Source of the DNA: Bdellovibrio bacteriovorus W
GTDB taxonomy: Bacteria; Bdellovibrionota; Bdellovibrionia; Bdellovibrionales; Bdellovibrionaceae
Direction of reading: 5' to 3'
NCBI GenBank assembly: GCA_000525675.1
Contig: CP002190.1
Location: 2,170,001-2,234,000 of the forward strand
Length of the DNA: 64,000 nt
Both the position numbers and the translations under genes were made by a program. Positions 50,687 to 54,583 of this stretch are shown here, one piece after another. The notes below the pieces were generated by a model. It ran no database searches. It was not told the origin of the DNA and was given only the letters and a program-made list of their open reading frames with translations. Numbering within the stretch: position 1 is the stretch's first letter; each line of letters begins with the position of its first letter.

Positions 50687-52087
50687 ATGTCTCCATCTGC
50701 GCTTTCTCCTGCGGCTATCAGTGAACTGTCTCATTTCCTAAAACCAGATCAAATCAAAACAGATCTTGAAAGCTTGAAGTACTGGGGTAAGGACTGGACG
50801 ACTTATTTTGACGTAAATTCTTCCGCGATTGTTTTCCCTCGCTCTACAGAAGATGTCGTGGCCCTTGTCAAATGGGCGCGTACTCACAAAGTGGGCCTTA
50901 TCCCATCGGGTGGGCGCACAGGTCTTTCGGGCGCCGCTGTCGCCACACAAGGTGAAGTCGTGGTTTCCTTTGATCAAATGAACAAGATCAAAGACTTCAG
51001 CTCGATTGATCAAACTGTAGTGATTGAGCCCGGTGTTGTTACAGAAGCCCTGCAAGAGTTTGCAACTTCAAAGCAACTTTTCTATCCCGTAGATTTTGCC
51101 GCCGTTGGCTCTTCCCAAATGGGTGGAAACATCGCGACGAATGCTGGCGGCATTAAGGTTGTTCGCTATGGTCTGACTCGTGATTGGGTTGCAGGTCTGA
51201 CCGTTGTCACTGGCACGGGCGATGTTTTACACCTCAATAACGGCCTTATTAAAAACGCCACAGGTTATGATCTTCGACATTTATTCATCGGCTCTGAGGG
51301 AACCCTTGGCTTTATCGTAGAAGCTAAAATTCAACTCACAGCTCCCCCTCCTCCTTTGCAAGTTCTTGTCATGGGAGTCAGTGGCCTTGATGCTGTGATG
51401 AAAATCTTTGCTGAATTTAAAACAAAAACGTCACTGGTTGCTTTTGAAATGTTCTCAGACAAAGCCTTAGATAAGGTTCTAGAGGGCACAGGTCTACCTG
51501 CACCTTTAGATACTAAAACTCCGTTTTATGTTTTAGCAGAAGTGGAAGCTGGTAGCGAAAACGAGCAAGAATCCATCATGAGCGTTTTCGAAAAATGCCT
51601 TGAAGAAGAATGGGTGCTTGATGGAGTGATGAGTCAGTCGGATGTTCAAGCGACGACCTTCTGGCGCTATCGCGAAGACATCTCTGAGTCTTTAGCAAAA
51701 TACTCTCCGTACAAAAATGATATCGCTGTGACGATCTCTCAAGTTCCAGCCTTTATGAATGATCTCGATGTTGTCTTGAAAAACGCCTACCCAACATGGG
51801 AAGTCGTATGGTTTGGTCATATCGGTGATGGCAATTTGCACATCAACATTTTGCGTCCTGAGGGAATGAGCAAAGAAGAATTTGTGCAAGAGTGCCGTAA
51901 AGTCGACGTGCTTATCTTTGACTCTGTTAAAAAATACCACGGGTCAATCTCGGCGGAACACGGTGTGGGATTAACGAAGAAATCCTTTTTAAACTACACT
52001 CGTTCTGAGGCGGAGATTCAAATCATGCGTGGGATTAAGGATGTCTTCGATCCTGATCATGTCATCAATCCGGGGAAGTTGGTCTAG
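50687..52087 (+). CDS. FAD-binding oxidoreductase (GlcD/D-2-hydroxyacid dehydrogenase family)
   Basis: A 466-residue flavoenzyme. The FAD-binding type 4 domain (about 40-220) has PSGGRTGLSGAAVA, the NIATNAGGIKVVRYG loop and GSEGTLGFI. A C-terminal substrate domain carries GHIGDGNLHINIL and SAEHGVG, the metal/substrate His motifs of GlcD, D-lactate and D-2-hydroxyglutarate dehydrogenases. It oxidises a D-2-hydroxy acid to the 2-oxo acid. The serA gene lies 1.3 kb away on the other strand, so D-2-hydroxyglutarate clearance (a SerA by-product) is an attractive but unproven substrate. It is the last gene of the bolA operon. Confidence 0.9.
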   Translation: MSPSALSPAAISELSHFLKPDQIKTDLESLKYWGKDWTTYFDVNSSAIVFPRSTEDVVALVKWARTHKVGLIPSGGRTGLSGAAVATQGEVVVSFDQMNKIKDFSSIDQTVVIEPGVVTEALQEFATSKQLFYPVDFAAVGSSQMGGNIATNAGGIKVVRYGLTRDWVAGLTVVTGTGDVLHLNNGLIKNATGYDLRHLFIGSEGTLGFIVEAKIQLTAPPPPLQVLVMGVSGLDAVMKIFAEFKTKTSLVAFEMFSDKALDKVLEGTGLPAPLDTKTPFYVLAEVEAGSENEQESIMSVFEKCLEEEWVLDGVMSQSDVQATTFWRYREDISESLAKYSPYKNDIAVTISQVPAFMNDLDVVLKNAYPTWEVVWFGHIGDGNLHINILRPEGMSKEEFVQECRKVDVLIFDSVKKYHGSISAEHGVGLTKKSFLNYTRSEAEIQIMRGIKDVFDPDHVINPGKLV

Positions 52088-52103
52088 CTTAACTGAGCGA
52101 GCC

Positions 52104-52227
52104 TCCTAGGAAGAGGAAGGCTCTCTTGCGCCAACTCGCCCCTCCGTGGGCTCGCTGCCATCCGCCTTCGGCGGAGCGCATCCTGCTTGGCAGAGGTTGG
52201 CTTCAGAAAGCCTTCCTCTTCCTAGGA
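52104..52227 (+). repeat. Long structured repeat, copy A
   Basis: Perfect 19-bp outer arms (TCCTAGGAAGAGGAAGGCT at 52104-52122, complement at 52209-52227) enclose a second 6-bp stem (52130-52135 / 52196-52201). A conserved loop core (52148-52196) contains the perfect hairpin CCGCCTTCGGCGG. The core recurs inverted at 53241-53300, while the outer arms differ in sequence. Such a layout suits a mobile hairpin element or a structured RNA. It lies between the FAD-oxidase stop and its terminator at 52275. Confidence 0.75.
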
Positions 52228-52274
52228 TTCTCTTCGTTCAGTGTTTCAAATGGATTTTTTTCGTGTTTTTTGAT

Positions 52275-52314
52275 AAGAGGCTTTTGTTTGAAACAAAGGC
52301 CTCTTCTTTTTTAT
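52275..52314 (+). terminator. Terminator of bolA-glcD operon
   Basis: A long stem (AAGAGGCTTTTGTTT / AAACAAAGGCCTCTT, one G-U) is followed by CTTTTTTATTT on the plus strand. It ends transcripts that run through repeat copy A. Confidence 0.85.
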
Positions 52315-52330
52315 TTGGGATTGTTCTTTT

Positions 52331-52969
52331 TTATTTTCGTACGTAGCGCAAGTGTGTGGCTTTGGGGCTGTCTAGGACTTTTTCGATTTTGAATTGTGGC
52401 ATGGGGTCTTTCATGTTTTCGAAAAGGCGACGGCCTCCTCCGAAGATGACCGGGACTAAGGCGATTTCTAGTTCTTCGACGACCCCTAAGTTTAGGTATT
52501 GTTGAATCACGTCGGCACCGCCTGAGATTCTGATATCTTTTTCACCCGCCGCCTTGCGAGCTAATTCGAGTGCGTGTTCGGGGCCTTCGTTTACAAAGTA
52601 GAATGTGGTTCCCCCGGGGCGTACCCAAGGCTCGCGTTTTTCATGAGTCAGAACATAAACGGGACCGTGAAAGGGGGCTTCTTCCGGCCAAGAAATTTCG
52701 CCAGCATCGAATATGCGCTTTCCCATAATGTTGGCGCCTATACGCTCGGCAGTCTTTTTAAAGAGATCATTCACTGGGCCTGTTTCTCCACCTTTACCGA
52801 ATTGAAGATTCTCGCGAAAGTATTGCAGCCCGATCGCCCACCCCATGAGCTCTCCCCACTTCGCAGCCCAGTTTTTATATTCTGGAGTGTTCCAATTTTC
52901 GAGAGTCATTCCCTCAGGTGCCATATAACCATCAAGACTCAATCCGATATTCACAAAGACCTTGCTCAT
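52331..52969 (-). CDS. RibD C-terminal/dihydrofolate-reductase-like protein
   Basis: A 212-residue protein of the RibD_C/DHFR superfamily: NIGLSLDGYMAPEG, NIMGKRIFDAGE, ISGGADVIQQYL and IALVPVIFGGGRRLF. It likely reduces a small pteridine-like or other substrate with NADPH. Stand-alone members of this family are common and mostly uncharacterised. ATG 52969 follows AGGGG; an upstream frame to 52993 adds 8 residues. The gene is bracketed by two inverted copies of a long structured repeat (52104-52227 and 53204-53350), so the block could have been acquired or moved as a unit. Confidence 0.85.
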   Translation of the reverse strand: MSKVFVNIGLSLDGYMAPEGMTLENWNTPEYKNWAAKWGELMGWAIGLQYFRENLQFGKGGETGPVNDLFKKTAERIGANIMGKRIFDAGEISWPEEAPFHGPVYVLTHEKREPWVRPGGTTFYFVNEGPEHALELARKAAGEKDIRISGGADVIQQYLNLGVVEELEIALVPVIFGGGRRLFENMKDPMPQFKIEKVLDSPKATHLRYVRK

Positions 52970-53203
52970 AGTTTTTCCCCTATAAGCACTCATGCTGTCT
53001 CAATCAAAAATAGCTGACAATATTTTTCCTTAAGAACTTCATCTTGTAATTTTACGCCTGCAAGCACACAAAAAATTCATCAAAAAATTCCTGCAAGGAC
53101 GAATCTACTTAGCTATCAAGTCGCTGAACACGAGATGAAAGAAAGAATTTTTATTAAGCTCTCTGAAAAACAAGAAAAACATAAAGCAACAACGGCGACG
53201 ATT

Positions 53204-53350
53204 CCCCAGAAGGGGGGAGAGGGATCTTTAACGGAGTCGGCCTCTGCCAAGCAGGAGGCGTTCCGCCGTAGCGCTAGCGAAGGCGGATGGCAGCAAGCCC
53301 ATGGATGGGCGCGCCGACGGAGGTAAAGAGCCCTCTCTCCCCTTCTGGGG
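53204..53350 (-). repeat. Long structured repeat, copy B (inverted)
   Basis: Outer arms of 20 bp (CCCCAGAAGGGGGGAGAGGG at 53204-53223 with its complement at 53331-53350, one G-U pair) extend by 6 bp after one mismatch. An inner 6-bp stem (53236-53241 / 53313-53318) and three small hairpins are seen (about 53241-53258, the CCGCC...GGCGG stem, and GCCCATGGATGGGC). Read on the minus strand, 53300-53241 matches copy A's core with few differences and an insertion of about 11 nt in the hairpin loop. The arms share no sequence with copy A, yet are also complementary. Confidence 0.75.
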
Positions 53351-53380
53351 AGTTCACCGAGAGCTCCGTCCTACGCAAGG

Positions 53381-54583
53381 TTAAAGTTTTCGCGTACGAA
53401 TACTTCGTCCAAGATTACTGATCGAATCACATAGAATATCCGCGTGCCCCGAGTCGACGTCCATGACGAGGTAACCAATTTTTTCATCCGTCGCTAAGTA
53501 CTGACCTTCGATATTGGCTCCTGCTTGAGAAATCAAACCATTGATCTCCCCTAGAACCCCTGGTTCATTACGATGTACATTCACAAGACGCGAAGCCCCC
53601 GGGCGAATAGGTAAATCAACATTCGGAAAATTAACAGCCCCTGCCGATGAACCAATTTTTAAAAACTTTCTAAAGCTCTCAGAAACTTCAATCCCGATAG
53701 CATACTGAGCCTCTTCAGTACTTCCCCCGATATGTGGAGTCAGTATGACATTGTTAAGATTTTGCAGAGGAGACTGAAAAGGATCTTTGTTTGAAGCTGG
53801 CTCTTCTGGAAAAACGTCAATCGCACAGCCTGCAATTTTATTTTCCAGCAAGGCACTGGCTAAAGCTTCAATCACAACGACAGAGCCACGACTGGCATTG
53901 ATCAAATAGCTGCCCTCTTTCATAATTGAAAGTTCGCGGGCACCGATCATGTCTTTGGTATCTAATGTTTCGGGAACATGCAAAGTCACAAAATCTGACA
54001 TTGCTAATAGCTCATCCAAATTTGCTACCGATTGCGCATTCCCTAGTGGTAATTTTTTAATAACATCGTAAAAGCAAACTCGCAGTCCCATAGCTTCGGC
54101 TAAGACACTCACCTGACTACCGATATGACCATATCCAACAATCCCCAAAGTCTTACCACGAACCTCATGAGCTCCTTCAGCGGACTTTACCCACTCTCCA
54201 CGATGAGCCTTGGTATTGCGATCTCCTAATTGACGAGAAAGAGCGATCATCTCTCCGATAACCAACTCAGCCACTGAGCGTGTGTTCGAATGAGGTGCAT
54301 TGAAAACAGGAATTCCTAAATCACGTGCAGCCTCAAGATGAACTTGATTGGTCCCTATGCAAAAACACCCAATTCCGTGTAGGTGTGGGTTTTCTTTCAA
54401 AACCTTTTCAGTGATCTGTGTTTTTGAGCGAATTCCGAGAACTTGATACTTCGGCAAGAGTGACAAAAGCTCATCCTCTGAAGGAGCATAACTCAGGGAG
54501 TCTACCAGAAACCCTTCGGCTTCCAGATTCTTTTTAGCCATTGGATGAATGTTTTCTACAAGAAGGATTTTTAGAGCGGTCAT
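53381..54583 (-). CDS. serA: D-3-phosphoglycerate dehydrogenase with ACT domain
   Basis: A 400-residue cytoplasmic enzyme, first step of serine synthesis. It has the NAD-binding GYGHIGSQ, the catalytic residues in INASRGSV (Arg), FPEEPAS (Glu) and LTPHIGGST (His), and a C-terminal ACT domain (about 330-400; NVHRNEPGVLGEINGLI) for serine feedback. The length and layout match the E. coli type. AGGAGG lies just before the ATG. It is monocistronic, and repeat copy B lies 31 nt beyond its stop. Confidence 0.95.
   Translation of the reverse strand: MTALKILLVENIHPMAKKNLEAEGFLVDSLSYAPSEDELLSLLPKYQVLGIRSKTQITEKVLKENPHLHGIGCFCIGTNQVHLEAARDLGIPVFNAPHSNTRSVAELVIGEMIALSRQLGDRNTKAHRGEWVKSAEGAHEVRGKTLGIVGYGHIGSQVSVLAEAMGLRVCFYDVIKKLPLGNAQSVANLDELLAMSDFVTLHVPETLDTKDMIGARELSIMKEGSYLINASRGSVVVIEALASALLENKIAGCAIDVFPEEPASNKDPFQSPLQNLNNVILTPHIGGSTEEAQYAIGIEVSESFRKFLKIGSSAGAVNFPNVDLPIRPGASRLVNVHRNEPGVLGEINGLISQAGANIEGQYLATDEKIGYLVMDVDSGHADILCDSISNLGRSIRTRKL

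Follow-up and report, generated by a model that had tools for sequence, protein, structure and literature searches.

REP/BIME repeats are dispersed extragenic palindromes that are located near gene 3' ends, occur in tens of copies, and are transcribed with the upstream gene. Bcr1-type and ERIC repeats are structured, mobile intergenic repeats of ~130-155 bp, which have a strong RNA fold and are conserved over their whole length. The window analyzed here, a 64,000-nucleotide stretch of the Bdellovibrio bacteriovorus W genome (contig CP002190.1, positions 2,170,001 to 2,234,000), contains two elements, C1 and C2, which are members of a mobile, structured palindromic repeat family of Bdellovibrio. 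The family is ordinary in kind, being a dispersed structured mobile repeat; its unusual trait is that a conserved branched core is joined to arms that evolve fast and freely in sequence while remaining complementary. Like REP/BIME repeats, the Bdellovibrio elements are dispersed palindromes at gene 3' ends, but their core is a covarying multi-branched fold and their arms are unique to each locus. A link to RAYT genes was rejected, since a profile search revealed no Y1_Tnp gene (PF01797) in the window genome, and none of the 30 RAYT loci of the genus has a copy beside it. (Up to 12 Y1_Tnp, RAYT-like, genes per genome are present in the genus, in G022 and G012.) The elements resemble Bcr1-type and ERIC repeats in size, intergenic location, strong RNA fold, and mobility, but differ in host and sequence, and in having free arms instead of full-length conservation. 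They share with the MITEs of IS elements the character of short non-autonomous repeats, and one IS1-like element bears a Bdellovibrio hairpin; however, most copies have no IS1-like terminal inverted repeats (TIRs), and complementary arms free in sequence are foreign to MITEs. Integron attC sites are also palindromes in which pairing, not sequence, partly matters, but the layout in Bdellovibrio is the inverse, with a conserved core and free arms.

The two palindromes, each of ~140 bp, stand in inverted orientation at positions 52099-52233 (C1) and 53201-53353 (C2), where the earlier note had described inverted repeats with matching cores. The gene-sense orientation of C1 is the plus strand, and its modelled strand, the one with GGA loops, is the minus strand (model match 52124-52205); for C2, the gene-sense orientation is the minus strand and the modelled strand is the plus strand (model match 53232-53324). 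On the plus strand, the 28-nt left arm of C1 (52099-52126), unique to the locus in sequence, pairs strictly with the right arm (52205-52232) and encloses the conserved branched core (52130-52201), which is composed of P1 (GCCAAC/GTTGGC), P5, P2, P3, and P4. In C2, 23-nt arms at 53201-53223 and 53331-53353 pair with each other around a conserved branched core at 53233-53322 (all plus strand). When aligned in inverted orientation, the cores match over 34 nt at 91% and over 57 nt at 74%, and the C1-C2 match in a genome-wide blastn search had an E value of 5.9e-11. The arms of C1 and C2 are mutually unrelated in sequence, yet each pairs with its own partner, which bears out the claim that the arms differ between copies while remaining self-complementary. 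In the 64-kb window, C1 and C2 are the sole long palindromes with a large, G+C-rich branched loop, other arms longer than 15 nt belonging mostly to short-loop, terminator-like hairpins. Both elements are far more stable than their dinucleotide shuffles (z of -6.6 for C1 and -7.3 for C2).

A blastn search across the genome with C1 or C2 revealed three more copies, and in the resulting set of five, 12 of 25 core pairs were already changed on both sides. Of the 24 genomes of the genus, 20 had matches to a first covariance model, R1. A second model, R2, was built from 60 copies, with P3 left out because the alignment split this helix. With R2, 20 copies were found in the window genome (3.0 Mb; 3,006,992 bp), and 4-34 copies per genome were found in 22 of the 24 Bdellovibrio genomes; strain HD100 has ~14. 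The element is ~150 bases long in the family. A second genus of the same taxonomic family (G035) has one complete element, with a 35-bp arm, and elsewhere in the class only weak model matches were obtained. There was no match in phages with a 156-bp query, or in plasmids with the IS unit as a query; two pattern-scan matches in genome contigs of MAGs from other phyla were taken as chance.

The fold common to the family consists of an outer helix P0 (~25-40 bp), a purine-rich internal loop CGAAG/CGAAG, helix P1, and a junction of P2 and P5; P2 encloses P3, which has an A-NGA-U loop, and P4, and the loop of P5 is usually nGGAU. On the strand antisense to the neighbor gene the order is P0, CGAAG, P1, a conserved CCUYYG, P2 with nested P3 and P4, a UGA linker, P5, P1', CGAAG, and P0'. 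Across the 60 copies, 91.9% of core cells were paired, compared with 73.2% in shuffles, and core covariation was 0.506, compared with 0.183 in shuffles and at most 0.108 in controls in which the partners were slid. About a quarter of the copies share a foot motif, AGCAAAATTTG / CAAATCCCCGC; both of its ends stand at matching distance in 33 of 133. Another short palindrome, TCCGCCTTCGC..GCTACGGCGGA, which forms the P4 hairpin of C2 and C4, also occurs repeatedly in G010 and G021 (L028, L029, L030), there with no branched core. In Rfam, no family reached the gathering threshold for the window, and nothing relevant was obtained for 12 other copies even at relaxed thresholds. No earlier description of the family was found in the open-access literature, and the family is apparently undescribed. 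The genome-wide search and covariance modelling proposed in the earlier note thus yielded 20 copies, not two, with strongly covarying core pairs. Its placing of the repeat outside known REP/MITE types agrees with the Rfam result and with the missing link to RAYT genes, and its suggestion of a selected structure or a mobile hairpin element is supported by core covariation, compensated arms, the dispersal of the 20 copies, and presence/absence between species.

With neighbor genes defined as open reading frames picked by length, rather than by curated annotation, 61 of 93 matches are flanked on one side by a gene that ends at the element (p 0.003, shared ancestry ignored), and in ~40 of the 93 the gene end is within ~50 nt of the arm end. 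A stop codon often precedes the copy by 5-50 nt, and the orientation is fixed. The neighbors are diverse, unrelated housekeeping genes (rplL, rpsI, rpsD, cysS, recG, lepB, etc., named mostly by reading the sequences, with recG checked), and a regulon of related genes was rejected for this reason. No replication-strand bias was seen by eye in the coordinates of model matches, the origin being assumed at base 1. In the window, C1 starts ~11 nt past the stop codon of an FAD-linked oxidase gene (50687-52087, plus strand; PF02913, E 8e-50), and C2 starts ~28 nt past the stop codon of a D-3-phosphoglycerate-dehydrogenase-like (serA-like) gene (53381-54583, minus strand; PF02826, E 1e-50). A RibD_C/DHFR-like gene (52331-52993, minus strand; PF01872, E 2e-12) does lie between C1 and C2, as previously noted, but a special meaning of this bracketing is not borne out, since the DNA enclosed by ten other inverted pairs is mostly short and non-coding, and each copy appears to belong with the gene next to it, at that gene's 3' end. 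Given the distances of 11 and 28 nt to the two outer genes, the DHFR-like gene is incidental, and the inverted pair arises from two convergent genes, each ending in a copy.

It is very improbable that C1, the DHFR-like gene, and C2 form a gene cassette mobilized by its flanking inverted repeats. The unit is lineage-specific, as a cassette could be, the gene being absent where the FAD-oxidase and serA genes of relatives stand 13-70 bp apart, and other relatives having other DNA between the two. However, the arms of C1 and C2 are unrelated and therefore are not duplicate ends, other inverted pairs enclose 200-650 bp, mostly non-coding, and single copies are the rule; as the meaning of inverted pairs, a cassette was rejected. 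The convergent interval between the FAD-oxidase and serA-like genes (window 52088-53380; L124-L146) is variable in the genus: it measures 13-70 bp in four species, and other species have 1-7 kb there, with contents that differ. The C-terminus of the serA-like product (window 53381-53400) reads RTRKL, compared with RTRVVY in most relatives, which indicates that the last codons were replaced beside C2.

Mobility of the hairpin repeats is supported by comparisons within and between genomes. Four near-identical copies, dispersed in the window genome, are located at the right end of a ~1.2-kb IS1-like unit (G000:C1, in genome:contig form, at 1151190, 1650354, 1821520, and 2010529; L188, L210, L193, and L201, respectively). 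The unit has imperfect terminal inverted repeats (TIR AACTGATCC...) and a gene for a 290-aa zinc-ribbon IS1-related transposase, whose match to NCBIfam IS1 (E 2e-11) is below the cut-off; the gene is disrupted in two of the four units. G010 contains a decayed relative of the unit (a 66% identical fragment), with a copy at the same place. IS1-like TIR ends were found at only 6 of 130 copies; since most copies are without them, we consider the IS a carrier and not the source. Duplications of 8-10 bp surround two IS units, while no clear target-site duplication was seen at a standalone site, L088, which holds a copy in G022 and is empty in G012 and G021; the outer left arm of this copy resembles flanking sequence that exists in G012 even without the element. 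At L084, G012 has a full element and G022 a core-less hairpin, the outer arm of which is itself compensated. At L071, the element is present in G012 and G022, and an intrinsic terminator stands in its place in G021. All three are presence/absence comparisons and may reflect gain or loss.

These data could also be accounted for by a DNA hairpin that is purely selfish (a MITE-like or single-strand-DNA element), is moved in trans by a transposase, has no host function, and has a fold that matters for transposition alone. Mobility without functional bias among neighbor genes would be expected of such an element, the TIR-bounded IS1-like unit with its copy and the remnant in G010 provide a possible vehicle, and the arms, which are pure in Watson-Crick pairs and in which about half of double changes are of the transversion type, suggest copying at the DNA level. 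We nevertheless regard this explanation as doubtful, because many copies are found at the same position in different species and have a fold that covaries, few copies have IS ends, and neither the window genome nor the RAYT loci of the genus offer a RAYT connection.

The best explanation, which we rate about as likely as not, is that the family is a structured mobile repeat of a REP/MITE-like kind, whose copies land behind genes, at their 3' ends, and act there as hairpins at the transcript end. According to this reading, the element would spread as a hairpin unit, at times as a passenger of the IS1-like transposon, would settle close to terminators at the 3' ends of genes, and may be kept for a putative transcript-end structure, which would protect the 3' end or block read-through, a role that REP/BIME repeats have in enterobacteria. 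The attack-phase RNA APsRNA6 of HD100 (1,338,787-1,339,441, plus strand; PMC3627812) bears on this point. G006 was identified as HD100 by the merRNA c-di-GMP riboswitch, which stands at its published coordinates. APsRNA6 contains an R2 match in gene-sense orientation behind a 92-aa open reading frame, continues past this copy, and has another inverted copy, decayed and seen by eye, at its end. The transcript, published as a small RNA, may instead be an mRNA. The open reading frame (L229:814-1092; HD100 1,338,813-1,339,091) has no Pfam match. The APsRNA6 copy, the position of the elements, and the exchange with a terminator favor a role at the 3' end. Unlike an intrinsic terminator, the stem has no U-tract directly behind it (no U-run at positions 2-9), and the sequence is T-rich only ~10-18 nt downstream. 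Because of this, and because the excess of G-U pairs speaks for the opposite strand, we infer the 3'-end function with moderate confidence. A set of long hairpins at the ends of Bdellovibrio genes, which would otherwise be puzzling, is explained by this family. The structured repeat is genus-wide and apparently unannotated, although its host is a model predatory bacterium, and one of the HD100 copies lies inside a published attack-phase RNA.

The imbalance of G-U over A-C pairs in the arms (51:15, p 1e-5) favors folding of the strand antisense to the neighbor gene and fits a 3'-UTR role poorly. It agrees with an independent small RNA gene family, in which this modelled strand would be transcribed, the core with its two GGA-bearing loops would bind a protein such as CsrA, and the arms would be an RNA scaffold. 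Changes between orthologues are skewed in the same way (32:16), csrA is present (91.5 bits), and the loops of the modelled strand are purine-rich and often ANGGA, so that several GGA-loop hairpins on one strand recall CsrB/RsmZ-type small RNAs. We nevertheless consider such a gene family unlikely. GGA is common without being invariant, CGAU, UGAU, and GAU loops being common as well, and copy number and position vary as in mobile, intergenic repeats. Moreover, APsRNA6, the sole published transcript found over a copy, runs on the other strand, and only one of eight HD100 attack-phase small RNAs overlaps a copy.

The arms have a median of 29 pairs and a total composition of 2410 Watson-Crick, 51 G-U, 15 A-C, and 98 other pairs; when arms from different copies were mispaired as a control, the score was 7 or less and no pairing was observed. 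Arm (P0) sequence is unique to each locus, and some near-identical dispersed copies include the arms. In orthologous copies, grouped by similarity of neighboring genes, 74 double changes kept pairing, and 39 of these, more than half, were of the transversion type, for which there is no route through G-U. The same copies had 48 single-sided changes to G-U or A-C and 55 other mismatches, many at the outer edge. In eleven copy pairs of two close species, divergence was 17% in the arms, 7.5% in the core, 21% in the left flank, and 8% in the right, mostly coding, flank, and 60 arm pairs were changed on both sides, compared with 15 expected under independence. Arm evolution is near-neutral in speed but coupled between strands. 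Since arms shaped only by selection for an RNA helix should evolve more slowly and contain more G-U pairs, arm complementarity is probably kept by coupled mutation, in which replication copies one arm from the other, whether or not the helix is selected as well. A more far-reaching possibility, which we put forward tentatively, is a new class of element in which the conserved branched core drives continual renewal of the palindrome: copying across the hairpin would rewrite one arm from the other, keep the arms near-neutral yet perfectly complementary, and, on insertion, extend them into the target sequence. Coupled mutation in palindromes is recorded naturally, and many times over, in these arms, so that RNA-helix selection and template-switch repair could be told apart with data. 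In the right flank of L078, tandem CAAGTCCCGGCAGCC repeats stand directly beside the element arm.
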